A DNA stretch of 36,018 nt from positions 1 through 36,018 of the forward strand of contig CAMVMU010000014.1 of NCBI GenBank assembly GCA_947168655.1, written 5' to 3'. The position numbers and the translations under genes were made by a program. This document shows, in pieces, positions 6,329 to 25,277 of this stretch (the stretch's first letter is position 1; each line of letters begins with the position of its first letter). The notes under the pieces are model-generated. The model was not told the origin of the DNA and did no database searches. It saw only the letters and a program-made list of their open reading frames with translations. This DNA comes from an uncultured Oscillospiraceae bacterium. GTDB taxonomy: Bacteria; Bacillota; Clostridia; Oscillospirales; Oscillospiraceae.

Positions 6329-7300
6329 TCAAAAGAGGTTGAAAAAGACGGATGCGACGTCCAGGTCGATAAGGACCCAAAGCAGGACTCTTGCCATCAG
6401 AGCAACGGCGAAAACGCAGAGGCATGCGTATCCGGGCAAACCGGATCCGAGAAGCTTTCCACGGTGTTTTTTATCCAGCAGCCATCTCTTTGCAGCCGCG
6501 CTGATGCTGTTCACGCCGCATGCAGCGCTCAGCGCTGATTCACCGTCAAGTCCCGGGGCCGGCAGCAAATTGATGCCGGCAAGGACGACGTTGAAATTTG
6601 CAGCAAAGGTCATCGTCAGCGCCAGCCGATCATACCGCATCGCTAACAGGAGGCAGATACCGGCGATCAGAAGATCCGCCTCCACTCCGGCCAGGGCAAG
6701 CTGTATCCTTTCCGCTTTTGTTGCGTCTTCCCTGTCCTCGTGAGCCACGTATGCGCCCACCGGTATGATACCCAGCAGGAGGATCCCCGTGTCTGTGATC
6801 CTGTATCCGTAAGCAAGCGCGGCAATCATGTGACCCGCTTCATGGAGCATGACAGAACACGCCAGGAGGCTGTAAAAAATCCACCGGTTGAACTGGTATC
6901 CGGTATCTGCGCCCCTGTTTTTCATCAGAAAAACGCTTATGGCGAAGAACAGGACGGACACCAGCGGCAGGGCCCCGTTTATTGCCTTCAAAACCGGGCT
7001 GCCATTCCGGATCCGGTTCCCGACGGGAAACAGGATCAGGCGGTTGAACACGCTGTCGTCATCCCGGACAAATCTGGACGTCCGCACGAATCCGTGCTTT
7101 TTCAGCCCGGGAAGTACCTTGCGTCCGTTGTCCGGCAGGTTCAAGGGCCGGGTCCCGTCTGCCTGAAGAAGGGCTTTCCACAGTCTGTGGCTGACTTCAA
7201 ATTCCTGGCCGTCGGCGTTTTCGATGAAATAGTGGGTGGCATCGGAACCTTCATACTGAAAGGTTCCGACAGACACACCTTCCTTCAGCACCGGATACAC
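6329..7300 (-). CDS. M50-type intramembrane zinc metalloprotease
   Basis: A 323-aa polytopic membrane protein. Residues 1-85 form a soluble N-terminal domain that resembles a PqqD/winged-helix module (inference). Hydrophobic segments follow. The site-2-protease signature is complete: HEAGH at 153-157 supplies two zinc ligands and Glu, and NLLPAPGLDG at 244-253 matches the NxxPxxxLDG third-ligand motif. Such enzymes cut transmembrane or membrane-adjacent substrates. The start is GTG at 7300, 14 bases after the stop of the VirD4-like gene, with an AAGGTGGTGATCC ribosome site identical to the one before the gene at 14201-14830. It is the last gene of the leftward arm. Role in the system (processing a membrane-anchored component) is inferred. 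Confidence 0.85.
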   Translation of the reverse strand: MYPVLKEGVSVGTFQYEGSDATHYFIENADGQEFEVSHRLWKALLQADGTRPLNLPDNGRKVLPGLKKHGFVRTSRFVRDDDSVFNRLILFPVGNRIRNGSPVLKAINGALPLVSVLFFAISVFLMKNRGADTGYQFNRWIFYSLLACSVMLHEAGHMIAALAYGYRITDTGILLLGIIPVGAYVAHEDREDATKAERIQLALAGVEADLLIAGICLLLAMRYDRLALTMTFAANFNVVLAGINLLPAPGLDGESALSAACGVNSISAAAKRWLLDKKHRGKLLGSGLPGYACLCVFAVALMARVLLWVLIDLDVASVFFNLF

Positions 7301-7314
7301 AGCGGATCACCACC

Positions 7315-9141
7315 TTACTGCGTTTCCAAAAACGCCTTCCCGCCGGCCCGGATCACCTCATTGACAAGTGACTCCGCTTTGCTCCTGGTGTCAAATGCAA
7401 TATCCACCGGGAACCGGCTCAGCCTCTTTGCCGCTTTACCGAGGTCTTCCCCTGTGGCCGCGGCAACCGCCCGGATGATCCTTGCCCGATTGCCCTGCCC
7501 GTTGGTGATGATGGCGTGGAATTTCTTCTCCGTCTTCCGTTTTTCCCGTTCAGCCTCCTCAGCTTCGAGCTCGGCGATTTTTGCGTCGATCCTCGCAGTC
7601 AGGCTGTCGAGGTCTATGAGATCATCCACCCGTTCTCCCCCCGGGAAGGGGGACGGCATCACGGGGGCTTTTCTCTCCGGGGATGCGCCGGCCATGAGGG
7701 CCTCTATCTTCTTTTTCCTGCTCTCCTTGACCATGGCTTCAAAATCGAACGATTGGATCGGTTTTCCACCTGCCGCAGAATGATGACGGGGGGCTTTCCA
7801 GTCGGAGTTATCGTACATCTCGTCGTAGAAGGGAAAATGGGCGATAAACTTGTACTGGTTGTCCACCATCACCAGCGCCGTCCCGGTGGGCATGGCCGCC
7901 AGCTGGGACGCGGTGATCAGCTGTTCCTTGATGAGATGCCCGGCGTTTTCGACCTGCCGCTCTCCGCAGCGCTGCGCCCACTCTGTCAGCGTTTCCCAGC
8001 TGTTGGTGGAGAAGCCGATGGTGATGCCGATGCAGGAATTGATGGTCTCCGCCTTGCTCTTCCCATACACGTCGGTAAGCTGGGCAACACTTTGCAGCAC
8101 CAGCATCAGCCTCATGTTGCGGCTGCGGCTGGCCACCATCAGGTTGGGCAGAGACGGGATGCTCTTCCCCACGGAGCCCAGCTCCTCCAGAATGATGTTC
8201 ACCCGGATGGGAAGCCGCCCGCCCATCTCCTGGGCCACGCGGATGAGGTGCTGCGTGACCTGGGAGATCAGGAGGCCGGACAGCGTATCGTAGACGTCCG
8301 TTTCATCCGGGGTTATGATCCGCAGCACGAAGGGGCGATTGACGTCGATATCCATGATGTTCAGCGTATCATCGCTGAGCATTTCCATCAGGCCCTTGCT
8401 GCGGCTGAAGACCTCCAGGCCGGAAGCGGCAACGCTGTGGATAGACGCTCTCGTCTCGTTGGGCGCGGTCACATAGGTGGCCAGATTCCGCTTTGCCAGC
8501 GAGTCATGGGGCAGATCGTCGTAGAATGCCTTGAGCAGGTTGCTGCCCCCCAAGCGGATCTCAGACTGCTCCATCATCACGGCGACGCTGTCAAGATTGA
8601 CGTGCTCCTTGTCCACGGTTTCAAACAGCGCGTAGATCAGGCCTTTGAGGTAATTTGCGGCGGCATCCGTCCAGAACCTGTCGGATTTTCCGTCATAGGG
8701 ATAAACCCCGCTGCAAAACTCGCTGATCATGGAACTTGCGATATCCTTATCATCGGGGTCTTCGGAGCAGAAAAGCCGGTAGGGTGTGCTCAGCGGATTC
8801 CACCTGGTGGGGCTCATGCGGGGATTGCGGAAGTCAAGGCTAAAATCCTGATAGTTTTTCGGGATGTAGCAGGAATTTCTCCTGTCTCCCTCTCCTTTGG
8901 AATCAAGCATGATCAGGCTCTCCCCATTCAAGTAGATTTCTCTCTCAAAGGGAAGGCTGCAGCACTGGCTCTTGCCCGTACCGGTACGACCGATGACCGC
9001 GATGTGCGATTCGCCGTCATCAGAGTATTTTCTGCCGTTCTCCACATACACCACCGGGCCGGCGCCGCTGGCCGGGTCCGTGGTCTCATGGAATCTGCGC
9101 TTGATCTCGCTGATCGTATTCCAGCGCTCGCTTCTGCTCAT
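7315..9141 (-). CDS. VirD4/TraG-like ATPase with an L7/L12-CTD-like (ClpS-fold) C-terminal domain
   Basis: A 608-aa P-loop ATPase of the conjugative coupling-protein class. Walker A is GRTGTGKS at 51-58 and the Walker B strand is VNIILEELGS at 314-323, followed by the family's SRSRNMRLMLVLQS. No N-terminal membrane segments are present, unlike classical VirD4. After the ATPase core (to about 445) comes a linker with a helix containing DAKIAELEA (519-527), then residues 541-608. These align convincingly with the ribosomal protein L7/L12 C-terminal domain: an F-x2-I-I start, GNRARIIRAV, ATG, then AESLVNEVIRAGG. ClpS shares this fold, and a ClpP-type gene lies two genes upstream. The start ATG overlaps the preceding stop (ATGA), so translation is coupled. 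Confidence 0.88.
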   Translation of the reverse strand: MSRSERWNTISEIKRRFHETTDPASGAGPVVYVENGRKYSDDGESHIAVIGRTGTGKSQCCSLPFEREIYLNGESLIMLDSKGEGDRRNSCYIPKNYQDFSLDFRNPRMSPTRWNPLSTPYRLFCSEDPDDKDIASSMISEFCSGVYPYDGKSDRFWTDAAANYLKGLIYALFETVDKEHVNLDSVAVMMEQSEIRLGGSNLLKAFYDDLPHDSLAKRNLATYVTAPNETRASIHSVAASGLEVFSRSKGLMEMLSDDTLNIMDIDVNRPFVLRIITPDETDVYDTLSGLLISQVTQHLIRVAQEMGGRLPIRVNIILEELGSVGKSIPSLPNLMVASRSRNMRLMLVLQSVAQLTDVYGKSKAETINSCIGITIGFSTNSWETLTEWAQRCGERQVENAGHLIKEQLITASQLAAMPTGTALVMVDNQYKFIAHFPFYDEMYDNSDWKAPRHHSAAGGKPIQSFDFEAMVKESRKKKIEALMAGASPERKAPVMPSPFPGGERVDDLIDLDSLTARIDAKIAELEAEEAEREKRKTEKKFHAIITNGQGNRARIIRAVAAATGEDLGKAAKRLSRFPVDIAFDTRSKAESLVNEVIRAGGKAFLETQ

Positions 9142-9937: not shown

Positions 9938-10528
9938 TCACCACTCGGAAACAGGATCCCCCACCTGGTCCACCAGTCCGTACCCCAGGGCTTCCTCTGC
10001 GCTCATGATGTTGTCCCGCTCCGTGTCGCTCTCAATTTTTCCGCAAGGCTGTCCGGTACATTCCGAGAGGATCCGGTTCAGTTTCGCACGGACTTTGAGA
10101 ATATGCTCGGCGTGGATGCGGATATCCGACGCCTGTCCGCTTGTCCCGCCAAGGGGCTGGTGGATCAGGACCTCGGCGTTGGGCTGGCACCAGCGCTTCC
10201 CCTTCGTTCCGGCGGCCGCCAGGATGAAGGCGCCCATGCTGGCAGCCATGCCGCAGGCGACGGTAACGATATCGCACTTCAGCGCCTTCACGGTATCATA
10301 GATGCTCAAGCCGGCGGCCACAGATCCCCCGGGGCTTTGGATGTAGATGGTGATGTCGTCTTCCGAGTCCCTGGCAAGGCATCTGAGGGCGGAATTCAAT
10401 ACGGTAGCGACTTCCTCGTCGATTTCACCCGTGAGAGAAATGGTCCGGTGGGCAAAGTCAATATCCAGGGGCGCCAGCATCATGTCCTGGCCGTTGAGAT
10501 TGCAGACCTTCTTCATAAGATAGTTCAT
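9938..10528 (-). CDS. ClpP-type serine protease
   Basis: A 196-aa protein of ClpP length with all catalytic residues visible: Ser97 in GMAASMGAF, His123 in VLIHQPLGG, and Asp172 in DTERDNIMS. The family oligomerises into a barrel and needs an unfoldase to feed it. The sequence is diverged from housekeeping ClpP at the N-terminus ([19 protein letters not shown]), the region that normally gates the pore, so a dedicated partner is likely. Its ATG overlaps the preceding stop (ATGA) with GGGAGG upstream. No canonical ClpX/ClpC gene is nearby; candidates for the partner are the degenerate AAA protein or the VirD4-like ATPase with the ClpS-fold tail (inference). Confidence 0.93.
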
Positions 10529-10731
10529 ACGATCAAACCTCCCATATGATTGGTTGCCCCCATCAGGAGCTTGGCTTCGCGTTCGGTGATCTCGTCGAGA
10601 AGGATGATTTTCTTTTCGGGGACGTAGAGCTCCTTCTTCGCCGTAACAAGCAGCGAATTAGGGATCTCCTCGATAACCAATCCCCTCAGGTCCACGTTTC
10701 CGGTATTCAGGTTTTTTTCAAAAGTCTTCAT
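10525..10731 (-). CDS. Small conserved-looking protein of unknown function (68 aa)
   Basis: It starts [12 protein letters not shown] and ends HMGGLIV. I chose the ATG at 10731 because AAAGGA lies seven to eight bases before it; earlier ATG and TTG codons in frame are too close to or far from a ribosome site. It is charged, soluble, and contains [14 protein letters not shown], a likely beta-hairpin. It is the first gene of the ClpP/AAA/VirD4/M50 sub-operon and its stop overlaps the ClpP start, so the two are translationally coupled. No recognised family. Confidence 0.7.
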
Positions 10732-10962: not shown

Positions 10963-11661
10963 CTAATTTCCCCACAGGGCATTTCCGCCCGTATGGCCCA
11001 CGGAATGATCGTCCCGCGACACCAGGTCAAAGCTGCCTGTTTCGGGGTTGTGCTGCCACGTGTAGCCTTCTGGTGTATAGCCCTGGGGCGAGTCCATCCT
11101 CTCCATCGCGCCGATCGTCACGCCCTCCAGCTTTTCGGGACTGTCGAACATGTGATTCTGGAAGTCCTCCCGGCAGGCGCTGAACTGCTGGTGAAGGCTC
11201 ATATCATTTGCAGCGCTCCCCAGTTCAACGTGGTGTTTGCTTTCAAAATCGGGGAAAACGCCTTCAACGGATAAGCCATCGGCCAGCTCCGCAGTCCGCC
11301 TTTCAAAGGCAACGCCGTTTTCGGATTCCCGTCCATCCAGAGCCATGTTGCGGGTGGTTATCGGAATGGGGTCCCCGGGGACAAATACGTTCCCATCATA
11401 GTGCCGCTCTATGTAATCGGCCGCCTTATCAAAGCCGTAAGAGCGGGCGTAGTCGGCGGCTTTCTCCGCCTCCGTCTGGATCCCATTCCCGTCTGGCTCA
11501 AGATCCGGCGCGTGGTCGGAAACATCCGCCCCGCCGGGGAGCTCCGATGTCTCCGTGCCAGCATCGTCTGTTTCAGCGAAATCAAAATCAGCCCAGTCAC
11601 TTGTATCCGTCGTTTCCCCGGCTCCGGAAACCTCCATGGAGATGTCATCGAATTCACTCAT
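10963..11661 (-). CDS. HNH/EndoVII-superfamily nuclease (WHH-like), possible effector
   Basis: A 232-aa protein. Residues 1-65 are acidic and disordered-looking. The middle (100-170) carries RNMALDG, GVAFE and VEGVFPDF, matching the segment that precedes WHH-type nuclease domains in polymorphic toxins. The C-terminus has TWQHNPETGSFDLV, then DDHSVGHTGGNALWG: the family pattern W-x-H ... H-x3-HTGG, with His204, His219 and His223 visible. The first His of the WHH triad is Gln (WQH). The family cuts nucleic acid using a metal held by a beta-beta-alpha finger. The gene overlaps the ATPase gene upstream by eight bases and has GGGAGG before its ATG. No separate immunity gene is obvious. Confidence 0.78.
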   Translation of the reverse strand: MSEFDDISMEVSGAGETTDTSDWADFDFAETDDAGTETSELPGGADVSDHAPDLEPDGNGIQTEAEKAADYARSYGFDKAADYIERHYDGNVFVPGDPIPITTRNMALDGRESENGVAFERRTAELADGLSVEGVFPDFESKHHVELGSAANDMSLHQQFSACREDFQNHMFDSPEKLEGVTIGAMERMDSPQGYTPEGYTWQHNPETGSFDLVSRDDHSVGHTGGNALWGN

Positions 11662-14200: not shown

Positions 14201-14830
14201 CTAAATAAACGGATTGTGTTGGTAGTTGGGCGCAGCGCTCATTAGCTGCCTGGCCACCATGACGGGATGGGATGAGAACACCTTGTACAGGCAGGCTGCC
14301 ACGCCGCCTGTACACAGCACGGCAAGCAGGTAATGCTCCGCTGCGAAAAGCCCCCCGGCAGTGATTGAACAGAGTGCCGCCGCAAAGATCCATACGAGGA
14401 TCCTGGTTCTCCGGCCGTTGAGCGCGTCTCTGTGCTTCTCATACCGCCGCCTCCCGTATCGGATCATTTCATCGGAAACGCCGTTGAGTCTTACCAGCTT
14501 GTCCCACGCCTCAGAGGCGGCGGCCCGATGGGCGCTGTTTTCCATGTCTACGTCACTGAAATCCTGAGTCGCTGCACGCAAAACAGCGAGATAAAGCCTC
14601 TTTTCTGTGGGGTACTGACTCATTAACGGATTCAACAGCCGGATGGTCTGATCCCAGTTGCCGGCAGCAAGGTGACTCACGGCTTGGGAATATGTCCTGT
14701 CATATTGCATCAGCTGCTGATCCTGCTGCGGATCGTAAGCCGGTGCCCCGCAGGAGTCGCACTCCATTCTCATTCTGCTTCGGTTGTAGTGGAAGCCGGA
14801 ACAACCGCACCGGCTGCAGACGCGGTCCAT
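14201..14830 (-). CDS. Zinc-ribbon protein with helical repeats and two C-terminal membrane segments
   Basis: A 209-aa protein. An N-terminal zinc ribbon uses Cys5, Cys8, Cys24 and Cys27. A helical region (about 40-130) resembles a degenerate TPR. Two hydrophobic segments near 143-180 should anchor it, followed by a short tail. This architecture is common in Firmicute membrane proteins of unknown function and suggests a cytosolic zinc-ribbon adaptor tethered to the membrane. Its ribosome site AAGGTGGTGATCC is the same as that of the M50 gene. It sits in tight operon order between the 4-TM protein and the HerA-like ATPase. Confidence 0.75.
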   Translation of the reverse strand: MDRVCSRCGCSGFHYNRSRMRMECDSCGAPAYDPQQDQQLMQYDRTYSQAVSHLAAGNWDQTIRLLNPLMSQYPTEKRLYLAVLRAATQDFSDVDMENSAHRAAASEAWDKLVRLNGVSDEMIRYGRRRYEKHRDALNGRRTRILVWIFAAALCSITAGGLFAAEHYLLAVLCTGGVAACLYKVFSSHPVMVARQLMSAAPNYQHNPFI

Positions 14831-14862: not shown

Positions 14863-15396
14863 TTATCGGTTTCTGGGCGGCAAGGGCGTGCCGGCAGAGA
14901 TCTGGCGCAGCGTATGAGGCGGAACGGGATGCTGCGTCCGGGCTCCGGGCTTGTGACCGCTGCGCTCTCCGGCCTCAGGCGCCGCCTGATTGTCCGACTC
15001 TGCCGGAATCGCCGCAGAGTACACGCCCTGCCCGCGTATTTTCCGTGCGGAACTGATCAACGGGATCAAGACGATCAGGCAGACCAGCGTCGTGATTATG
15101 AAGGCAAAAACGGCCGATCTGACGGAAGCGTCAACCGCCAAAAGCAGGGCGGAGAGCCCGGCAACCGCCGTTTCCAGCGCGCAGGAGACGACAGCCAGCC
15201 CTGCTGTTTTGCGAAGATTGCTGTTCCAGTAGGTCACGAGAAATGCAGCGGGGATTCCGACCGTCAGAAGGGTACCGCCGATGTATACTGCCAGATGTGC
15301 GCGCGATGACGCGGGAGCCAGCCACCAAAACAGAAACTGGGGGATCAGCGCGACTGCCGCCAGGACAGGGACCAGTGTGTAGTTTTTACGTGTCAT
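14863..15396 (-). CDS. Four-segment membrane protein with proline-rich tail
   Basis: A 177-aa protein with hydrophobic segments at about 7-26, 36-56, 66-86 and 92-113, then a polar tail from about 118. The tail ends in TPLPPRNR, close to the E2 protein's tail (PPPLPGRNH). The ATG at 15396 has AAGGA at good spacing; an ATG three codons earlier is too close to it. No family recognised. Position between the SPFH-like and zinc-ribbon genes suggests part of a membrane assembly (inference). Confidence 0.72.
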   Translation of the reverse strand: MTRKNYTLVPVLAAVALIPQFLFWWLAPASSRAHLAVYIGGTLLTVGIPAAFLVTYWNSNLRKTAGLAVVSCALETAVAGLSALLLAVDASVRSAVFAFIITTLVCLIVLIPLISSARKIRGQGVYSAAIPAESDNQAAPEAGERSGHKPGARTQHPVPPHTLRQISAGTPLPPRNR

Positions 15397-15410
15397 CTCA
15401 ATCATTCCTT

Positions 15411-16511
15411 TCAGAAAAACCGATATCCGCAGATCGGACAAACAGAATTGCTGCGCATGACGTTTCCGTTACAGGACGGGCAGCGCCTGTATCGGTCGGG
15501 CATGGGCGGAGGCGCGTCGGCGGATGATGTGCTCTCCCGGGAATCAGACGCTGCGCCTCCGAACATATCGGTGTGACGCGTCATTTCAGACAGCGGTTCC
15601 CGCAATGCGGGAAGCATTTGCGAAAGCATCATCATCTGCATCATCACGGGAGCCATCCCGCCCGCGTTCCCGCCGGGATTGCCGGCAGGGATCCCGGAAG
15701 GGGCCTGTCCGCGGGAATGGATTCCCGTCATCATCTCGCTGACGGTGCGATTGTTGACGTTGCCGTTCCATACCCTCTGCAGGTTATCCAGTTCAAGATC
15801 GGTTCGGGTTTTTCCGCCTGCATATTCCTGTTCCAGGGCATAGAGCCGGCGGATCTCGGAATCGGGGATATTGATGGCCGCAATGTCAAACCGCTCCATT
15901 CTGATGCCATACTCTAACAGCCCCGATCTGATCGCTGCTGCCGCTTTTCTCCCGATATGAGAAAGATTGCTGTTGAACTCCGAAACGTCAAGCTTGCCGA
16001 TTTCACTGGAAATGGCTTCTCTCACAGGGGCGAGAACCATCTGATTGACGCACGGATCAATATCCTCCTCCGAGAACGCGGAGCTGTAGCTGCCCACCAG
16101 TTTCGTCAGGACCTTCAGCGGATCGGAAATAGAGAACGAGAGGTTGCACGAGGCAAGTGCTTTCATGGTTAGCCGGAAGCGATGCTCGCGGAAAGGGAAC
16201 TCCCCGGTACCGAGCTTGATAAACCTGGACTTCTCCGTGGACACGAAGAAAACGGAGACGGTCGTTCCGGTATCACCTCGGGCCAGGATGTTCTGGAGTC
16301 TTACAAAGAAGGGATCCACTCCTGTGAAGATTTCATATCTGCCGGGCCCGTAGGCACGGGAGAGCAGGCCGTTGACGGCAAAGAATGCCGTCGTTCCGGG
16401 GGGGACGATCAGAATACTGCCGTTTACGACAGCGGCGTATTGTCCGCACACGTCCGGCCGGATGCGGATCAGCCCGTTCCCCCCCGGATCTCTGATGGTT
16501 GATTGGTACAT
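15411..16511 (-). CDS. SPFH / virion-core-like protein with C-terminal zinc ribbon
   Basis: A 366-aa protein. Residues about 15-245 look like the SPFH domain of the YdjI 'virion core protein' group: an early GSILIVPPGTTAFFAVNG strand pair, then LLEYGIRMERFDIAAINIPD near the domain end. A Gly/Met-rich linker follows (about 265-310), then DAPPPMPDR (332-340) and a zinc ribbon with Cys344, Cys347, Cys358 and Cys361. SPFH proteins form large membrane-associated rings or scaffolds and often accompany proteases. It lies directly downstream of the transglutaminase gene with an AGGAGG site, and probably scaffolds the island's enzymes at the membrane (inference). Confidence 0.82.
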   Translation of the reverse strand: MYQSTIRDPGGNGLIRIRPDVCGQYAAVVNGSILIVPPGTTAFFAVNGLLSRAYGPGRYEIFTGVDPFFVRLQNILARGDTGTTVSVFFVSTEKSRFIKLGTGEFPFREHRFRLTMKALASCNLSFSISDPLKVLTKLVGSYSSAFSEEDIDPCVNQMVLAPVREAISSEIGKLDVSEFNSNLSHIGRKAAAAIRSGLLEYGIRMERFDIAAINIPDSEIRRLYALEQEYAGGKTRTDLELDNLQRVWNGNVNNRTVSEMMTGIHSRGQAPSGIPAGNPGGNAGGMAPVMMQMMMLSQMLPALREPLSEMTRHTDMFGGAASDSRESTSSADAPPPMPDRYRRCPSCNGNVMRSNSVCPICGYRFF

Positions 16512-17515: not shown

Positions 17516-18379
17516 TCACTCCTTTCTTCCCCTGGGGATCACAAGGCGGATCTTCAGGCATCCTCTGCCATCCATACGCGTGTGAAGCCGGATATCTCCG
17601 GCATAGCCGCGCGTGCGAAGGCACTGACCGGCAAGGCGCACGACTTCATCGGCCGGGGGGATCAGGCGTTTGTCTTCGCTGAGATCCGCCCGGGGAGCTG
17701 CGCCGTGCGAATAAACAATGATCTCGGCCTCAGCGAAGTTTTTCCCGATGCTGCCCAGCATCTTTTTCCGAATCGGGTCACACACGAAGATGCATACAGG
17801 GGATGACGCCGCCCGGGCAGCGCCGCTCACCCTGTCGGTGCTGCTGTAGAAGACGCCCAGATCGGGGTGGGTATGCCCTTCCAGGACGAACTGCGAAGGC
17901 CCGCAGAGCTCGAGAAAAGGATCGACCTGGCAGCCAAAGGCGTCGGTATTGTACTTGACCTCATTTCTCATGAACTCCTCGCGGTGGTACGCAAGGAAGT
18001 CGAGTCCCGGGTTGTACTCCCCGTCGGGCCCCAGATTTGACGCGCCGACGGCATTCCGGTTCATGGTCTGGATCTCGATAAAATGCTTTACGATCGTAAC
18101 GATATGCCCGCTCTCATCCATCAGATAATGCCCATAACCGGCATACTTCTGCTCATTGGCATTCATCGGAGAGCGTCTGCCGTATGAGATCATTACTTCC
18201 AGCTCACGTGCCGCTTCCGGCAGGATGATTACCTTGTTGGGGCCTTTCCCGTGTCTCTCCGCAATACAGACATCACCGCATTTGTTTTCGATGATATCCA
18301 TCGCTTTCTTCAGAGAACAAATCGGATAGGTCGGGGGTAATGCAGGTCGTCTGGTGGGCATAGGGGTATGATTCGTCAT
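17516..18379 (-). CDS. JAB/JAMM metalloprotease (predicted Ubl protease)
   Basis: A 287-aa protein. The zinc motif is perfect: His169-x-His171-x7-Ser179-x2-Asp182 within LEGHTHPDLGVFYSSTD. The assisting Glu should be upstream, with Glu61 or Glu76 as candidates. JAMM proteins remove or process ubiquitin-like proteins; in bacteria they are encoded with E1/E2 genes (BilC, Cap3). Here the likely substrate is the island Ubl, either trimming its two residues after Gly97 or releasing it from targets. The N-terminus is proline-rich (TPMPTRRPALPPTYP). A C-terminal part beyond about 205 is additional to the core. It is flanked by E2 and transglutaminase genes in a tight operon. Confidence 0.92.
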   Translation of the reverse strand: MTNHTPMPTRRPALPPTYPICSLKKAMDIIENKCGDVCIAERHGKGPNKVIILPEAARELEVMISYGRRSPMNANEQKYAGYGHYLMDESGHIVTIVKHFIEIQTMNRNAVGASNLGPDGEYNPGLDFLAYHREEFMRNEVKYNTDAFGCQVDPFLELCGPSQFVLEGHTHPDLGVFYSSTDRVSGAARAASSPVCIFVCDPIRKKMLGSIGKNFAEAEIIVYSHGAAPRADLSEDKRLIPPADEVVRLAGQCLRTRGYAGDIRLHTRMDGRGCLKIRLVIPRGRKE

Positions 18380-18395
18380 GATGCCAACTCCTCTC

Positions 18396-19028
18396 TCAAT
18401 GGTTCCGTCCGGGAAGGGGCGGAGGTGTTACAGGCGGCTTGACTGCCGTCCTGCGGGGCGGAAGCGCCGTCATCTCGGGGGCATAGAGCAGCTTGGGCTG
18501 GATCGTGGGAAAACGCCCGGCCGCCACGCCATCCCTGTGCCAGTTCTCCATGCCGCTGTTTGCCATACTGTCATAGCGGGTAACCCCCGGATCGTGGATC
18601 ATATCCCGTACGAGCTTGTCCACCACCGTAGTCAGTGAGCTTGTAAAGGGGATCCAGGTGTCGATGCAGGCTCTGCCGGAGCGAAAAACGTTCGGGCTGG
18701 CGAGATAGTGATCAGAAGCATATGCAGCCGATACGGATTTCAGCGGATAGCCGGGATAGCAGATGATATCTGCCGTCATAGATGCGCAGGCCTTCGGTGA
18801 GGAATCCTCCTTTGAGCTGAGGTAATGCGAAGGCGCCCTGACGGTCACACTGAGATGCATTGCCTCGCCGGGTTTTGCCTGAACCCGCCGGATCGTTACA
18901 TATCTGGGATCGTATTTCCGAATGATTTCCAGATAATCGTTCTTCAGGGCTTCAGCGGAGTCCTCCTTGGTGATGGAAACCTCCCGGGTGTGGCCGTATT
19001 CATCGGTATAGTTGGTTGAGTAACTCAT
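18396..19028 (-). CDS. E2 ubiquitin-conjugating-enzyme-like protein
   Basis: A 210-aa protein with a UBC fold signature. SPNVFRSGRACIDTWIP (111-127) corresponds to the eukaryotic HPNVxxxGxICLDIL region: the catalytic Cys is Cys121, and the HPN motif is SPN. It continues with SSLTTVVDKLVRDMIHDP, matching the E2 tail segment TLxxVLxxIxxLLxxP. It should carry the Ubl as a thioester received from the E1 encoded just upstream. The C-terminal tail is proline-rich and ends PPPLPGRNH, a motif shared with other island proteins. I chose the ATG at 19028 because AGGAGG lies six to seven bases before it; an ATG five codons upstream does not have this. Confidence 0.88.
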   Translation of the reverse strand: MSYSTNYTDEYGHTREVSITKEDSAEALKNDYLEIIRKYDPRYVTIRRVQAKPGEAMHLSVTVRAPSHYLSSKEDSSPKACASMTADIICYPGYPLKSVSAAYASDHYLASPNVFRSGRACIDTWIPFTSSLTTVVDKLVRDMIHDPGVTRYDSMANSGMENWHRDGVAAGRFPTIQPKLLYAPEMTALPPRRTAVKPPVTPPPLPGRNH

Positions 19029-19051
19029 AGTAGACCTCCTCAATATGTGAT

Positions 19052-20323
19052 TTACAGCTTCCGGACTTCGTGCATTCTCAGATGATCTTCATCGAAAGCG
19101 AATACCGTCCTCTTGATCTTCCCGGTGTCCAGAAAGTCAAGGGCCCCGTTTCGCTGGATCACCTCGATATGCGCGCCCAGGGGATAACCGAGATCGTAAA
19201 GAGTCATGCTTCGGACAGGCTCCTCACAGTCATACGAAAACGCGTGGAGGGGATCGCAGTGGGTGAATTCAGAGGCGGGCCGGGGCTGTTTGCCTGCACC
19301 GGCACACTCCTCACACAGAAGGTCATGCGGAAAAACACGTCCTTCATGCCGCATGACATGGATGGTTTTTCCGCACGAACGGCAAACGTCGTCTACGATG
19401 AATCCGGCGTGAACGACTTTCCTGTAGTTCAGGCGATGTACGGATATCTCGAAATCTGTGGTGCCCAGGAAAGCGGAAATCTGCTCCATTGCGTCCTTCA
19501 ACGTGACTTCCATGACGCTGCCGTGAAGCCATTCGATCTGAGCAGGCGGATGGATGGCGCATCCCGGGCAGTTCCGCTTGCGCATGGGGCGGGAGGAACT
19601 CAACTCCAGATGGGGATAGGCCGTATAGGTCAGCCTGCAGTTCATCACACCGTCGTCCCCGACAACACTGGCTCTCAGTTGTTCGGCGCTGAGATGGGCA
19701 GCCATGGAGCTTGCAAGGTTTGACGTACGGACGATTTCATTTACGCCGCCGGTTTGCCTGATCTGCGGACCTGTGCAGGACGTTCTGATGCTGCTGTCCT
19801 TCATCCAGCTCTCGTCGATCAGGCAGCGAATGCAGAACTCGGTGTTGTCAAGGATAACGCTCTGCGCCATTTCATCGTGGGTTCCATCCATGATAATGTT
19901 GGGCCGCCGTTTCTCCGGGAGACGGCGGATCAGCTCGTTCAGAAGCACCTTGGCGTCGAAATTATCAACCGCTGCCACGACATAGTCGTAATCAGAGAAC
20001 GCTTCCGGCCCGAGTTTGCACAGGTCGCCGTCGATCCCATTTGAGGAGCATCCGTCATCCAGCAGCGGCTGCACCCGGTCAGACGTGCATTCGGCCTTGT
20101 TTCGTCCGGCATCATCCGGCGTGCGGACAAGGCAGCCATGCTTTGCAGCGTTCTCAAGCGTAAAAAAGTCAAAGTCGATCGCATCAGGAGACAGTCCCAT
20201 TTTGGCAAATTTCTCCATCAGATGGGTTCCGACTGCACCTGCGCCTACAATCAGCACACGCAGGTTGTGAAACAGCGGCCGATATTCCGACAGCTTCAAT
20301 GTGTTGTAAACAACCTTCGTCAT
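19052..20323 (-). CDS. E1-like (ThiF-family) Ubl-activating enzyme
   Basis: A 423-aa protein. The Rossmann nucleotide loop is GAGAVG (27-32); DFDFFTLENAAKHG matches the family's D-x-D-x-V-x-x-x-N-L-x-R segment. Cys164/Cys167 with Cys252/Cys255 form the structural zinc site and Cys183 in SCTGP is the likely catalytic cysteine, giving an adenylation-plus-thioester E1. Unusually, residues 314-340 carry a second CxxC...CxxC zinc ribbon, and 373-423 (TLYDLGYPLGAHIEV) look like a compact beta-grasp/UFD-type domain that would recruit the E2. It lies between the Ubl-side genes and the E2. The start has AAGGA upstream. Confidence 0.92.
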   Translation of the reverse strand: MTKVVYNTLKLSEYRPLFHNLRVLIVGAGAVGTHLMEKFAKMGLSPDAIDFDFFTLENAAKHGCLVRTPDDAGRNKAECTSDRVQPLLDDGCSSNGIDGDLCKLGPEAFSDYDYVVAAVDNFDAKVLLNELIRRLPEKRRPNIIMDGTHDEMAQSVILDNTEFCIRCLIDESWMKDSSIRTSCTGPQIRQTGGVNEIVRTSNLASSMAAHLSAEQLRASVVGDDGVMNCRLTYTAYPHLELSSSRPMRKRNCPGCAIHPPAQIEWLHGSVMEVTLKDAMEQISAFLGTTDFEISVHRLNYRKVVHAGFIVDDVCRSCGKTIHVMRHEGRVFPHDLLCEECAGAGKQPRPASEFTHCDPLHAFSYDCEEPVRSMTLYDLGYPLGAHIEVIQRNGALDFLDTGKIKRTVFAFDEDHLRMHEVRKL

Positions 20324-20350
20324 GTTACATCATCCTTCCTTTCCGGGCTG

Positions 20351-20779
20351 TCAAAGCAGTTTCCCATTCCTCTTGAACCGGTGCCCTCTGGAGCAGCGGT
20401 AGCAGTCTGCCCCGCTGTCCCAGAAAATCACCTGTCGGCCGCCCGGCACGTTCCTTTGTTTATCGAAGGGGCAGCATGGGAACTGGTTGGGTCTTATTCC
20501 GCGGGGCCCATAACCGGCCTCCGCAGCCCTTGGCGTTGCAATTGCTGTTGCCGTCACGGAAGAACGGCGGGGAGGCAGAGGCCTTACAGCGGAAGAATTG
20601 TTTGTTCCGGTTTGAGGCCGGCTGACTCGTGGTGAGGGTATGCCCACGTTGACCCGAGACGGGAGCGGAGGAGGCGCGTCTACCGTTTTTTCTTTGCGCC
20701 CCCTCCTCGTTGCGCATGTGATAATGACTCCGCAGGCAGCCAGGCCCAAGCCGACAAGGAGGCATATCGTCACCATCAT
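20351..20779 (-). CDS. Membrane-anchored Cys/His-rich protein between Ubl and E1 genes
   Basis: A 142-aa protein. An N-terminal membrane segment (about 3-24) is followed by RRGRKEK, so the rest is probably cytosolic. A long disordered stretch contains DAPPPLPSR (34-42) and RPLPPRR. The C-terminal 40 residues hold Cys102, Cys103, Cys126, Cys129 and His133, a plausible zinc-binding module ending in RGHRFKRNG. I do not recognise the family. By position (Ubl, this gene, E1, E2, JAB) it could be a membrane-tethered adaptor or a ligase-like factor; this is a guess from context. It has AAAGGAG seven bases before the ATG. Confidence 0.75.
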   Translation of the reverse strand: MMVTICLLVGLGLAACGVIITCATRRGRKEKTVDAPPPLPSRVNVGIPSPRVSRPQTGTNNSSAVRPLPPRRSSVTATAIATPRAAEAGYGPRGIRPNQFPCCPFDKQRNVPGGRQVIFWDSGADCYRCSRGHRFKRNGKLL

Positions 20780-20794
20780 GTCAGCTCCTTTTGT

Positions 20795-21094
20795 TTACGC
20801 CACGCCGGCATTGTCGCTGATTGCCAGCACGTCGCCATTCTGAAGGCCAAGGCCCTCAACGGTTTCATTGGTGTCGCTGGTGGATGCTCCGGTGCGCTTA
20901 TTCTCAAAGAGGATCTTGCTGTCGTGGGGATTCACGCCGATATCAACGGCATATTCCTGAAGCACCTGCCCCAGGGTATTCGTGCCCAGCACGGCGGCCT
21001 GAGGATAGGTCGTACCGGTCACCTTGTTGAGCAGATCGATCTCGAAGGTGCCTTCAGAGTTGGCGAGAGCCCCGTCAATAGGATAGTTTGTCAT
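20795..21094 (-). CDS. Ubiquitin-like beta-grasp protein
   Basis: A 99-aa protein. The order of segments fits a ubiquitin-type beta-grasp: a first hairpin (TFEIDLLNKVTG), a helix (TLGQVLQEYAVDIG), a strand with ILFENKRTG, and the late turn ETVEGLGLQNGDVLAI that mirrors the ubiquitin 'tLxdlgIqdgstLhL' end. It finishes SDNAGVA, so Gly97 is two residues from the C-terminus and could be exposed by the JAMM protease. First gene of the E1/E2/JAB run, with AAAGGAG upstream. In this system it should be the conjugated modifier. YukD-like and Bil-type Ubls are the nearest known analogies; a search is needed to place it. Confidence 0.85.
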   Translation of the reverse strand: MTNYPIDGALANSEGTFEIDLLNKVTGTTYPQAAVLGTNTLGQVLQEYAVDIGVNPHDSKILFENKRTGASTSDTNETVEGLGLQNGDVLAISDNAGVA

Positions 21095-21697: not shown

Positions 21698-22597
21698 TTA
21701 TTCGCCCAGATGCTTGCTCGCTCTGTAAACCAGGCGGCTGATCTGGCCCGCGATCTGCCCGGCGTTTTTGGTGTCCGCTTTGACGGATTCCTCAGTCAGC
21801 TTGCTTTCGGCGATGACGCTACGGATCGCCGAAAGCTCCATGCCGTTCTGCCGGGCCACCCGGAAGATGATTTCGGCAAAAGCGTTTTCACAGCCCTTGC
21901 GGATGATCAGGCTCGCCAGCGCGCGGGGCTTCATGCCAAGATGCGTGCAGGCCAGTCTCACCATGACCTCGGCCGGGCGCTTGCTGAGACGGTCTGCCTC
22001 GCGAAGAATGGCTGCTTTCTTCCCGTCCCGTTCTCTTGCCTGCTTGGCCCTGAGCTCCATCGTCAGTTCCCTGACGGTCTCGCCTTCGGAGTGGATGCGC
22101 TCGGGATTGTATGTTACGTCGGGGATGATATCCTCGTAGGTGTATGCGTCCTCCGCATCAACGCCGGCTCCCTCAATCGTGCTGTTAAGGGAAACGATCC
22201 TGAGATTGTCGGGGGGAAGCTTTCTGAAGCAGTCGTTTACCACGTTGTTGCAGATCGCGTAGCAGTAGTTCTTCTGCTTCTCGACGGGCTGGCTCAGAAC
22301 CTTGTCCAGCTTCTCGACGACTTTGATCACGCAGTCCGTCTCGATCTCCTCTCTCGTGAACGCGCCGCGTTTCTCCAGCTCGTCGATCTTTCCGCAGTTG
22401 CCGGGGAGGATCTCGCCCCGGTCGTTCCTGCCGCCGGTCTTGGACAGAAGCACGAACCGGCAGACGAAGTCCTGCAGCGCCAGCCAGAACTGCGTGTAGA
22501 GCGCCGGATGTTCCATCAGCTCGTCCCTGGTGCGGATCCCCGCCTCGTGGATGGTGTCCAGGATGGAAACGAAAGTGGTGCAGGCCGTCTTTTTCAT
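21698..22597 (-). CDS. Sigma-70-region-2-like regulatory protein
   Basis: A 299-aa protein. Residues about 85-140 resemble sigma factor region 2: a helix DCVIKVVEKLDKVL, then QKNYCYAICNNVVNDCFRK, which fits the 'yxyxIxxNxxxDxxRk' core that binds the -10 element, followed by SLNSTIEG. The C-terminal half is helical and basic but a clean region 4 helix-turn-helix is not evident, so promoter recognition may be unusual. The ATG at 22597 follows GGGGGAG. It is transcribed toward the Ubl operon, divergently from the winged-helix gene, with its own terminator. Likely role: controlling expression of the island (inference). It could also be a diverged phage-type sigma. Confidence 0.65.
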   Translation of the reverse strand: MKKTACTTFVSILDTIHEAGIRTRDELMEHPALYTQFWLALQDFVCRFVLLSKTGGRNDRGEILPGNCGKIDELEKRGAFTREEIETDCVIKVVEKLDKVLSQPVEKQKNYCYAICNNVVNDCFRKLPPDNLRIVSLNSTIEGAGVDAEDAYTYEDIIPDVTYNPERIHSEGETVRELTMELRAKQARERDGKKAAILREADRLSKRPAEVMVRLACTHLGMKPRALASLIIRKGCENAFAEIIFRVARQNGMELSAIRSVIAESKLTEESVKADTKNAGQIAGQISRLVYRASKHLGE

Positions 22598-22795
22598 GAT
22601 GAGCTCCCCCTTCTGTTTTGATGGAGGGCGGAGCCGCAAACACGGTTTACTGCTTGTCCGTCCCTCTGATAAACAGTTTAGAAGGCGGAACTGATTTGCT
22701 TTTTCCCCCGGCAATTGTCTTTGCCTTACCTGCCTTGCTTCAGCCTTGATTTTATCTTTCGGGCCTCATTCTCCGGGCGAAAGGATTTGTGTAAC
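22598..22795. promoter_or_regulatory. Divergent intergenic region between the two island regulators
   Basis: About 200 bases separating the start codons of the sigma-like gene (minus) and the winged-helix gene (plus); both arms must be driven from here or nearby. AT-rich words such as GATTTTATC are present, but I find no clear -35/-10 pair in either direction. Confidence 0.5.
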
Positions 22796-23479
22796 ATGAG
22801 TTGGATTTCCAAACTGAAAGACAGGAGTTATTACATAGATTTTGACTCGGGTTATGTCTATGACGAGAATGACTCTGTCGTTGCCGAGATAACGTCGCCT
22901 ACACAGTTCAATATTCTCCTTTACTTTGCAGACCACCCTGGGATGTGGCTGAAAAAGGACGGGATCATTAGCACCTGCTGGCCGGATTCGGCAAGTGCCG
23001 AATATGTTTCGGACAGCACCTTTTACAAGCAGATTCACGGCGTAAAACACATCCATGTCAAGGTCAGTGAAAGCATTGAATCCTCACGCGGCATGGGGTA
23101 CAAATACCATGGGCTGCGTAAAGAGAAAAAAGACAGTTCGCCCCAAAAGCTTCCGCCGGAGGCAGCTCCCCGTTCTTCCCCGTCCGGGAAAAAGACGAAT
23201 GTCATTCCTTCATCAGTTGAAAACGTCATCAGTCTCTCCTCCATGCTGATCCACAAGGGCGGACAGGATCATCCGGAGTTGGGTGCAGAGCTGGAGCTGA
23301 TGATACGGAACATCATCGGGATTTTGGAGCAGGGAGTGGCCGAGGATTTTGAGAGTGTTAGTGATCGGGCCTGGGAAGATTATTCCTTGAAGGAGAAGGC
23401 CGCGAAAATCTTCCGGGCGTATGAAAATATTATGGAGCGGTCTCGAACCCTTTCCCCCGATCCAAACGCGAAATTGTAA
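22796..23479 (+). CDS. OmpR/PhoB-type winged-helix regulator without a receiver domain
   Basis: A 227-aa protein. Residues about 12-105 match the transcriptional regulatory C-terminal (winged-helix) domain: ITSPTQFNILLYFADHPG is the first helix segment, WLKKDGIISTCWP the second, and GMGYKYHG the final wing (family: G-x-GY). No phospho-receiver domain is present. A basic, proline-containing linker follows (about 108-145), then a helical C-terminal domain of unknown type. Starting at 22796 with AAGGA upstream. It diverges from the sigma-like gene and precedes the second VirD4-like ATPase by 17 bases, so it probably regulates the island and is co-transcribed with the rightward arm. Confidence 0.8.
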   Translation: MSWISKLKDRSYYIDFDSGYVYDENDSVVAEITSPTQFNILLYFADHPGMWLKKDGIISTCWPDSASAEYVSDSTFYKQIHGVKHIHVKVSESIESSRGMGYKYHGLRKEKKDSSPQKLPPEAAPRSSPSGKKTNVIPSSVENVISLSSMLIHKGGQDHPELGAELELMIRNIIGILEQGVAEDFESVSDRAWEDYSLKEKAAKIFRAYENIMERSRTLSPDPNAKL

Positions 23480-23496
23480 CCAGGAGGACGTGACAG

Positions 23497-25260
23497 ATGG
23501 CGGAAAACATGTATCTTGAGAGCAAGGAACGGATTTTTAAGGAGTTCTCCCATTTCTCCGTGGGCGAGAAAAACCCCGATAAGATTTTCACCCGCCGGCA
23601 GAGGGGCAAGTATCTGGGCGGCGTTCCTCTGGCTTACGACGCCGAGCGCGATCTGATCGCCATCGACTCGTCGGATACCCACACGCTGGTGTGGGGATCC
23701 ACCGGCTCACTCAAAACCCGGTGCGTCATTGAACCCACGGTCAAAATCATCGGGAAATCCGGCGAAAGCATGATCATCAACGATCCCAAAGCCGAGATCC
23801 ACAATCGATGCGCCGCGGAGCTGCAGGCGGAAGGCTATCAGATCATCGTGATCAACATCCGGGACCCCGAGTTCGGCAACTCGTGGAATCCTCTTGCCAT
23901 CCCCTACCGGTTCTATCTCGCAGGGGATCTTGACAGGGCCGCTGAGTTTGCCAATGACGTGGCTCACAACCTGACCATGGAACAGGTTTCTACGGAGGAC
24001 CCGTTTTGGGATTACAGCGCGTCGGACTGCCTGTTCGGGTTGATCCTCCTCCTGTTTCGATATGCCAAAGATCACAACCTGGATGAATCCGCCGTTCATA
24101 TGAGCAGCCTCATGAAACTGAGGCAGGAACTGTTCAAATCCTCCACCGGAGCCTTTAAGGCGGCAGGATCCCTGCTGTGGAAATACGCTTCGGAGGACGA
24201 ACTGATCGAAGCGAGCCTGAGCGGGTCCATCTATGCGCCTAACGACACCCGCAATTCGATCCTGTCGGTCTTTGACCAGAAGATGCGGGCCTTTACGATC
24301 CGCCCCTCACTGCTGGATATGCTGGCCAACAACGACATCGATCTCGGCGAGATCGGCGAGAGAAAGTGCGCCGTATTCCTCATCATCCCCGACGAGAAGA
24401 GCACTTACAACAACCTGGTCAGTCTTTTTATCAAGCAGGCCTATGAGTATCTCATCTATAAGGCTTCTTCCAATGAGGATCTCAAGCTGAATCACAGAGT
24501 CAATTTTGTGCTGGACGAGTTCTCCTCTCTCCCCCCCATCACTTCCATGTCGACCCTGATCTCGGCAGCTCGGTCTCGGGACATCCGCTTCGTTCTGGCT
24601 GTCCAAGGAAAGCACCAGCTCATTAAGCGGTACGGTGATGAGGCGGAGACGATCAAGAGCAACTGTGCCAACTGGATCTATCTCACCAGCCGTGAATATG
24701 ATCTGCTGAAGGAGATTTCGGATCTCTGCGGCGAGCAGCGCAACCGGACCCCCAACCTGTCCGTCTATGACCTGCAGCACTTCAGCAAGGAGAAAAGCGA
24801 GGCGCTGGTGCTGTGCGGCCGCTTAAAGCCCGCGAAGGTCAATCTGCTGGATATCGACAGATTCGGCGATCGGGACTATTCGATCCTGGAGTTTGCCCGC
24901 CTTCCCAGACGGCCCAGACAGACGACGGATTTCAAGTTGTCGGATGAGATCATCCACCGCATCGCTCCCGTGCTGAGCGGCAAACCGTATGGCTCGGACA
25001 GTACGCCCCCGTATATTTCTCCCGCGCCGAATAAACCGGCTCAGAGCGATCCTCCCCCCGCTGTACCGAAGGCCTTAGAATCTTCTTTTGCCGATGCGAA
25101 AAAGAAGAGCGTCAACAAAGAAAAACAACCAAATCTTGAGGCGATTGGAATTAAAACCCCGGCTGACCTTGACGATATCATTCGTCAATATGATCAAAAA
25201 ATAGCCGAGCTTGAAGCAGATGCTACTGTTTCAGGTTCGGACAGCGACGATAAGCAGTAA
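23497..25260 (+). CDS. Second VirD4/TraG-like ATPase
   Basis: A 587-aa coupling-protein-type ATPase. The P-loop is GSTGSLKT (67-74), in which the usual Gly before Lys is Leu. A Walker B strand VNFVLDEF (335-342) is followed by the family's AARSRDIRFVLAVQ. No N-terminal membrane helices. After about residue 485 the tail is proline-rich and then forms a helix with DQKIAELEA (566-574), nearly identical to DAKIAELEA in the first VirD4-like protein; it lacks the L7/L12-like domain. Classical relatives pass DNA or proteins to secretion channels. Here two copies without a relaxase suggest substrate recruitment for another purpose (inference). AGGAGG precedes the ATG. Confidence 0.88.
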   Translation: MAENMYLESKERIFKEFSHFSVGEKNPDKIFTRRQRGKYLGGVPLAYDAERDLIAIDSSDTHTLVWGSTGSLKTRCVIEPTVKIIGKSGESMIINDPKAEIHNRCAAELQAEGYQIIVINIRDPEFGNSWNPLAIPYRFYLAGDLDRAAEFANDVAHNLTMEQVSTEDPFWDYSASDCLFGLILLLFRYAKDHNLDESAVHMSSLMKLRQELFKSSTGAFKAAGSLLWKYASEDELIEASLSGSIYAPNDTRNSILSVFDQKMRAFTIRPSLLDMLANNDIDLGEIGERKCAVFLIIPDEKSTYNNLVSLFIKQAYEYLIYKASSNEDLKLNHRVNFVLDEFSSLPPITSMSTLISAARSRDIRFVLAVQGKHQLIKRYGDEAETIKSNCANWIYLTSREYDLLKEISDLCGEQRNRTPNLSVYDLQHFSKEKSEALVLCGRLKPAKVNLLDIDRFGDRDYSILEFARLPRRPRQTTDFKLSDEIIHRIAPVLSGKPYGSDSTPPYISPAPNKPAQSDPPPAVPKALESSFADAKKKSVNKEKQPNLEAIGIKTPADLDDIIRQYDQKIAELEADATVSGSDSDDKQ

Positions 25261-25277
25261 TGCGAGGAGGTACGCAG

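Follow-up and report, generated by a model that had tools for sequence, protein, structure and literature searches.

A putative ubiquitin-type conjugation module at the head of a nuclease, ATPase and ClpP gene cassette in an uncultured Oscillospiraceae bacterium

The stretch of DNA analysed here (the window; 36,018 nucleotides of an uncultured Oscillospiraceae bacterium, GenBank assembly GCA_947168655.1, contig CAMVMU010000014.1, positions 1 to 36,018) carries on its minus strand a run of 16 genes, from position 21094 to 6329, headed by genes of ubiquitin-type protein conjugation (see Table 1). An earlier note on this DNA had recognised there a complete conjugation core, composed of a ubiquitin-like protein (Ubl), an activating enzyme (E1), a conjugating enzyme (E2) and a JAMM protease (JAB); all four open reading frames (ORFs) lie where it placed them and the gene content fits such a core, while its completeness depends on an E2 fold for which the evidence is a sequence motif plus a profile match of modest strength. 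The operon order given in the same note needs amending, since the four genes are present but a fifth one, coding for a 142-residue protein, is interposed between Ubl and E1, and the run extends well past JAB. The membership of these genes in a 16-gene nuclease, ATPase and ClpP cassette is the new part, beyond what that note contained.

Five loci were compared, namely those of the window and of the genomes designated G929, G931, G1021 and G043 (G1116, found at the same contig place, is counted with G929). The 15 larger genes of the run occur in the same order in G929 and G931, with 61-92% identity, and the remaining 68-residue ORF was seen in both by eye; neighbouring genes overlap or are separated by at most 32 bases, with the exception of 231 bases ahead of the 68-residue ORF. 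The ratio of nonsynonymous to synonymous substitution rates (dN/dS; Nei-Gojobori, window versus each relative) is low: among 25 comparisons covering 10 genes the smallest value is 0.026 and the largest 0.41, and 21 of the values lie below 0.17; the largest belongs to one Ubl pair, the next (0.23-0.30) to the 142-residue protein. Guanine-cytosine (GC) content is 48-58% over about 6.0-28.2 kb (1-kb steps), against 64-74% in the directly flanking DNA; as to repeats at the edges of this low-GC island, a single 16-base GC-rich direct repeat was the only candidate, and it is not convincing.

Table 1. Genes of the 16-gene run in the window, with acidic-headed effectors of related loci in the last row
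Feature	Position	Strand	Evidence and remarks
Ubl, 99 aa	20795..21094	minus	ends NA-G97-V-A
142-aa membrane Cys/His protein	20351..20779	minus	homology, alignment; no Pfam match
E1, 423 aa	19052..20323	minus	Pfam ThiF 2e-16
E2-like protein, 210 aa from ATG	18396..19028	minus	SPN 111-113, Cys121; profile match
JAB/JAMM protease, 287 aa	17516..18379	minus	JAMM motif
Transglutaminase-fold protein, 327 aa	16529..17512	minus	Pfam PF01841 9e-6; apparent Cys-His-Asp triad assigned by eye
SPFH/Band-7 protein, C-terminal Zn ribbon after PPPMPxR	15411..16511	minus	Pfam PF13421 2e-17
Hydrophobic protein, 192-aa ORF	14863..15441	minus	membrane nature read by eye
209-aa protein: N-terminal Cys cluster, TPR-like stretch, hydrophobic segments	14201..14830	minus	Pfam TPR sub-threshold
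HerA/VirB4-like ATPase, 845 aa	11654..14191	minus	best PADLOC matches mad8 3e-16, DndH 7e-15
Nuclease effector, 232 aa: acidic N-terminus, C-terminal colicin-DNase/WHH	10963..11661	minus	Pfam PF12639 3e-11, PF14414 3e-8
Small ORF, 68 aa, between nuclease and ClpP	10525..10731	minus	no family match
ClpP paralogue	9938..10528	minus	Pfam PF00574 2e-63
AAA-like ATPase, 268 aa	9138..9944	minus	weak AAA_22, 0.018
VirD4/TraG-type ATPase	7315..9141	minus	Pfam PF02534 3e-28; start by homology = residue 103 of longer ORF
M50 metalloprotease, last conserved cassette gene	6329..7300	minus	Pfam PF02163 6e-16
Acidic-headed effectors	window 10963-11661; L067:18668-19372; L071:15658-16362; L057:12120-14315; L059:5586-7490

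The identity of E1 is secure by sequence. The ThiF match spans residues 19-240, that is one adenylation domain, and G27/G29/G32, D50, K76, D120, C183 and the cysteine pairs C164/C167 and C252/C255 are invariant in all five sequences, down to 29% identity; the zinc cysteines and the Cys183 singled out in the earlier note are thereby upheld, while its "P-loop" is actually a Rossmann GxGxxG. In the PDB, the E1 profile matched eukaryotic E1 adenylation domains best (UBA7 3e-12, ubiquitin E1 7e-10), followed by TcdA (3e-9), Cap2 (1e-6), ThiF (5e-5) and MoeB (1e-4), an order which is not to be read as a phylogeny; a match to BubCD (2.5e-4) covers only residues 12-130, and those to NCBIfam 6A-MBL (2e-7) and to the ThiF model (42 versus 275 bits) fall under the respective cut-offs. 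The PADLOC "E1-E2" matches (best 33 bits) were set aside, being confined to stretches of the adenylation domain. The region after this domain carries a further C4 set (314/317/337/340). Its LYDLG...IEV stretch is reminiscent of the ubiquitin-fold domain of eukaryotic E1s; the profile scores did not uphold the likeness (14.5 versus the Ubls, below the shuffled maximum of 18.7), the PDB gave no match below E 0.26, and no such domain is claimed.

The JAB protein carries HTHPDLGVFYSSTD, the only match to the JAMM pattern (HxHx7SxxD) among the 190 window ORFs of at least 60 residues, so that the perfect JAMM motif reported before is borne out; when the protein was shuffled 20000 times, the pattern, formed here by H169, H171, S179 and D182, arose in 3 cases, and E76 is the likely catalytic glutamate. 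Sub-threshold matches to Pfam Prok-JAB (0.02) and RPN11 (0.11) were also obtained.

The small protein at the head of the run is supported by its sequence as a beta-grasp Ubl with a conjugatable glycine. Aligned by hhalign to ubiquitin, NEDD8 and SUMO1, a nine-row profile reached a score of 30.8 (E 3e-5 for this single pair, probability 73%); the highest score among 60 column shuffles was 17.0, and none of ten other cassette families compared with the same Ubl set exceeded 13.6. The PDB matches of the Ubl profile are weak (polyubiquitin 0.023, NPL4 0.087, BilA 0.26, with unrelated proteins from 0.46). The near-terminal glycine noted earlier is present as Gly97, trailed by a two-residue Val-Ala tail; Gly-Val-Ala follows the domain in seven of nine Ubl units, two of these seven having Gly-Gly-Val-Ala. 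Tandem and fused Ubl genes, as in polyubiquitin or SUMO precursors, are found among the relatives: G929 has four Ubl genes in tandem, and in G931 two units are fused head to tail, this di-Ubl scoring 21.1 bits with the NPL4 Ubl model, whose cut-off is 21.9. The third tandem copy of G929 (L071:5816-6103) stops ahead of the C-terminal glycine and so would not be conjugatable like the others. The putative Ubl of G043 was assigned by gene place and tail only.

The E2-like protein is the weakest link, its identity depending on an active-site motif together with a modest profile match. An alternative TTG-start ORF reaches 19043. The active-site cysteine proposed in the earlier note, Cys121, is there; the triplet in what was called an HPN-like context is SPN in the window and HPN in the distant homologue from G043. 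The SPNVFRSGRAC site resembles the HPN...C site of eukaryotic E2s, and is the sole match, among the same 190 ORFs, to a pattern which was picked post hoc and which arises in 11 of 20000 shuffles. Aligned by hhalign to three human E2s, the five-row profile scores 31.2 (E 3e-4 for one pair, probability 39%), while 60 column shuffles reach at most 20.1 and ten other cassette families at most 18.5 versus the E2 set; a UBC model searched at E 10 had no match in any of the five genomes or records.

There is good support for a Ubl-conjugation pathway, as against a ThiS/MoaD sulfur operon, in the E2-like gene, the JAMM protease and the tandem and fused Ubls, which would need processing; a sulfur-carrier operon was rejected on account of E2, JAB and the Ubl profile, and the operon proteins have no rhodanese among their listed Pfam matches. 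A broader version of the same idea, according to which E1 would act like ThiF/MoeB or like an adenylating enzyme of ribosomally synthesized and post-translationally modified peptides on small tandem precursors, with the M50 protein as maturase, may draw on the small tandem genes with their varied tails and on two matches below cut-off, that of E1 to ThiF and that of M50 to a daptide-protease model (35 versus 300 bits, far below the cut-off); it is highly improbable in view of the E2-like gene, the JAMM protease, the ubiquitin-profile match of the small protein, and the eukaryotic E1 adenylation domains which are the best PDB matches of E1.

The 142-residue protein, 63-73% identical in three other loci, has a hydrophobic N-terminal segment and a C-terminal CC...CxxC...H cluster (both read by eye) and a PPPLPxR motif; that it is a membrane adaptor or an E3 is a speculative proposal. 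A PPPLPxR or PPPMPxR motif is common to this protein, to the E2 C-terminus (PPPLPGR tail) and to the stretch before the SPFH zinc ribbon, where it is perhaps a common docking site. The true start of the hydrophobic protein probably lies downstream of its ORF start, since homologues align from residue 9-10. The likeness of the HerA-like ATPase to the PADLOC defence ATPases mad8 and DndH lends weak support, at the level of sequence, to a role in conflict. The effectors adjacent to HerA that bear an acidic head have 32-38% D/E and 0-2% K/R in their first 60 residues; such a head is found in five of six HerA-linked effectors (the exception being G457), and it is a possible export signal or self-inhibitor.

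The ClpP of the cassette keeps the GMAASMG and IHQP active-site motifs (by eye), and a second ClpP, 51% identical to it, is encoded elsewhere in the genome of the window (G000:C32); the 268-residue AAA protein has a match in one of 150 genomes, that of the window itself. A ubiquitin-protease analogue is conceivable, in which the Ubl would mark proteins for the cassette ClpP, with the AAA protein or HerA as unfoldase. Besides the retained motifs and the separate ClpP, it is favoured by four loci in which a ClpP adjoins the module, those of the window, G929, G931 and G1021 (in the last a 41% homologue). It is nevertheless unlikely, as no Clp/Hsp100-type unfoldase figures in the Pfam match lists of the cassette (for HerA, 25 of 31 matches) and the 36 kb around G043 gave no match to a ClpP homologue.

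The more divergent loci bear on whether the module and the toxin parts belong together. In G1021 the Ubl, the membrane protein, E1, E2 and JAB are kept at 63-78% identity; a NucA-type nuclease (PF13930 4e-6) begins 3 bases past JAB and is followed by a different VirD4-like ATPase and, further along, by the ClpP homologue and then TraG. Since the module is thus joined in G1021 to a different nuclease, VirD4-like ATPase and ClpP-TraG pair, the association recurs with replaced parts, and nuclease, ATPase and ClpP genes stand beside the module in four of the five loci. The G1021 nuclease (L081:15647-16348) has an acidic tail instead of a head. Upstream of this variant lie genes for a STAND-type NTPase (L082:921-3389) and a 3064-residue AAA-domain protein (L082:3418-12612), which suggests a defence island. 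G043, a distant relative, has E1, E2 and JAB together with its putative Ubl.

Of 394 genomes searched with HerA, 20 had a match, one of them being the genome of the window, and the loci of eight of the 19 others were read in stretches of 4.7-30 kb, some of them short; no E1, E2, JAB or Ubl match was found in these eight at E 0.01, and SPFH was present in three. Other or similar effectors adjoin HerA in three of the eight: acidic-headed proteins in G500 (DUF6782 metallopeptidase-like, 4e-4, under cut-off) and G555 (no Pfam match), and in G457 a nuclease of WHH type, which matches that of the window (blastp 2e-16), with a SUKH immunity gene (5.5e-20). The toxin domain is therefore exchangeable, as in polymorphic toxins, being WHH in the window, metallopeptidase-like in G500, different in G555 and NucA-type in G1021. 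It could be argued that independent modules merely share one mobile island, the Ubl system being functionally unlinked to the nuclease; the module standing alone in G043, and the HerA loci without it (none of eight, within the limits of E and length just given), agree with this. Such independence is quite improbable, given that 16-gene synteny with overlapping or short junctions is kept in three sequences and that G1021 repeats the combination with other parts.

As to distribution, a species-genome scan with E1 found at least one close relative, an uncultured Oscillospiraceae metagenome-assembled genome (L065, E1 78%; its isolate name, Lapin, suggests rabbit), while a Prevotellaceae locus (L066, 42% over 53 residues) was dropped as a partial match. 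IMG/VR contributed one record (L067, E1 81%), recovered again with the E2, JAB and Ubl queries; in both L065 and L067 the order of the 15 larger genes is that of the window. In the IMG/VR record, phage-type replication genes (L076:6975-15670, by eye) lie about 20 kb from the cassette, and the viral label may be due to a neighbouring prophage. Whole-genome searches gave matches within their E limits in four of 400 genomes of the family (window, G043, G1021 and G1116), one of 391 of the class, one of 295 of the order and one of 35 of the G1021 genus (G1021 itself), these genome sets overlapping. A looser E1 search (E 0.001) matched 84 of 200 genomes, near full length only in the window genome and G043; the other matches, of at most 240 residues and 40 bits, were set aside as ThiF/MoeB-type. 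No match was found for E1 in phages or plasmids, nor for JAB in plasmids, and the G043 E1 had no relative in viral contigs. The system is rare and patchy across genera, as mobile DNA would be.

On balance, the locus probably encodes, as far as its genes tell, a ubiquitin-type conjugation cascade that serves a conflict cassette, located in a low-GC island and built around a nuclease effector in the manner of polymorphic toxins, a reading to which we give modest confidence. Regulation of the conflict machine by conjugation is the best reading because the module stays with the nuclease, the secretion-type ATPases and ClpP in four of five loci. Gene content, intact motifs, synteny and low dN/dS are what the sequences show, whereas all the biochemistry, the choice of substrates and any connection of the tagging with the toxin are inferred. 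The cycle might run as follows: JAB would trim the Val-Ala tail or split fused Ubl units, exposing the Ubl glycine; E1 would adenylate the Ubl and form a thioester at Cys183; the Ubl would be handed to Cys121 of E2 and conjugated to targets near the membrane, where the 142-residue protein perhaps positions the reaction; and JAB could take the Ubl off again. On the output side would stand the WHH nuclease, with SPFH-HerA and the VirD4-like ATPase handling it and with ClpP and the AAA protein as the proteolytic partner; conjugation would determine how stable the effector or its targets are, or whether they are released or exported. A more specific version, possible but put forward tentatively, holds that conjugation acts as a layer of control over a membrane machine composed of ATPase, nuclease and ClpP: tagging with Ubl from polyubiquitin-like tandem and fused genes would gate nuclease delivery, activation or degradation by ClpP and might replace a classical immunity protein.

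Several observations weigh against a conjugation cascade serving the cassette. Part of them concern E2: its hhalign probability is only 39%, it has no Pfam or PDB sequence match, its score without the G043 row drops to 24.9 over 12 columns, the G043 protein alone scores 17.9, within the controls, and the G043 cysteine is one column off Cys121 in the alignment, so that this column is not invariant; the unrelated pair of E2 versus the Ubl set reached 18.3. For the Ubl, the probability is only 73%, and the putative G043 Ubl, with a Gly-Asp-Val-Ala tail, scores 13.4, inside the control range. In addition, dS is near saturation in several of the dN/dS comparisons, only five loci are known, no toxin parts were seen beside the G043 four-gene set in the 36 kb read, and no immunity gene was recognised beside the window nuclease, the 68-residue ORF being without a family.

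Among known pathways, Bil is the closest in chemistry, and the comparison which the earlier note had drawn with Bil and with Cap2/Cap3 stands on that count; it does not extend to membership, as the Bil features tested are absent here. As described in PMC11354881, Bil comprises a two-domain BilA, a BilD with an inactive and an active adenylation domain and a Cys domain, and a BilB with a CEHH motif (Glu +6, His +8 and His +13 from the Cys). Separate Ubl, E1, E2 and JAB genes and a Ubl glycine to be exposed by the JAB protease are shared with it; the window Ubl has instead one domain of 99 residues (a fused pair occurs only in G931 among the five loci), the window E1 has one ThiF match followed by the C4 region in place of the two-domain layout of BilD, and the E2 positions corresponding to CEHH are P, T, T in the window and S, T, L in G043. 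The E2 here also has [SH]PN...C, and the neighbour genes differ. By our own reading, Bil corresponds to operon type 6d of Iyer 2006 (PMC1779556). It could then be supposed that the module is a Bil-like antiphage system, putting the Ubl on phage proteins, with the nuclease and ATPase genes as separate neighbours; the four activities are those of Bil (PMC11354881), and the STAND NTPase and AAA-domain genes near G1021 are of defence type. This is doubtful, with a single Ubl domain, a single adenylation domain and no CEHH, and with nuclease, ATPase and ClpP beside the module in all but one locus.

Type II CBASS Cap2/Cap3, 6A-MBL and Bub (BubCD) share a related E1 adenylation domain with the window. 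Cap2 and 6A proteins are E2-E1 fusions, whereas here each of the two enzymes has its own ORF and a gene for a Ubl accompanies them; a nucleotidyltransferase, which CBASS would have as its CD-NTase, does not appear in the Pfam match lists of 26 window ORFs. An archaeal parallel is the Ub-E1-E2-RING-JAB operon of Caldiarchaeum; the HPN-type E2 site (G043; SPN in the window) and the RPN11-like JAMM stretch (E 0.11) are common to both, while the present module is bacterial, has no RING that was found, and is tied to a nuclease cassette.

The fusion of E2 and E1 in 6A proteins is also described in the consulted part of Iyer 2006 (PMC1779556), where "ClpP" and "VirD4" are not mentioned (HerA and SPFH were not searched for there). 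The systems of Kaur et al. 2020 (PMC7159879) couple Ubl conjugation and JAB to ATPases and an effector, as here; their vWA-MoxR and FtsH-type ATPases, RING E3, EAD1 and caspase-like effector were not recognised in the Pfam lists of the cassette. With the polymorphic toxins of the Tox-WHH type (Zhang 2012, PMC3482391) the cassette shares the C-terminal WHH nuclease and an effector domain that varies among related loci; it differs in lacking a recognised immunity gene in the window and in the added Ubl module, and 300,000 characters of that text contain no mention of "SPFH" or "ClpP", its passages on HerA, as far as consulted, dealing with the type VII secretion system. A possible parallel, by analogy, is offered by a 2025 paper on nuclease-protease pairs of other defence systems, in which the protease activates its partner nuclease (PMC12799240). 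No description of the cassette was found in the open-licence literature searched, which does not establish its absence from print.

The bacterial Ubl pathways Bil, CBASS and Bub are small defence-type operons; here the pathway is fixed in a 16-gene cassette, and the combination may tie protein tagging to bacterial conflict. If the link were true, bacteria would steer toxins or feed a Clp protease by ubiquitin-type tagging, paralleling ubiquitin-dependent control in eukaryotes. Next to the cassette, divergent or neighbouring genes at window positions 21698-26333 encode a 338-residue ORF, a winged helix-turn-helix regulator, a TPR protein and another TraG-like ATPase; all but the regulator have homologues near the cassette in G931 as well. 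A clostripain-family peptidase (C11, 4e-40) is encoded at 366-2897 of the window, outside the low-GC island.

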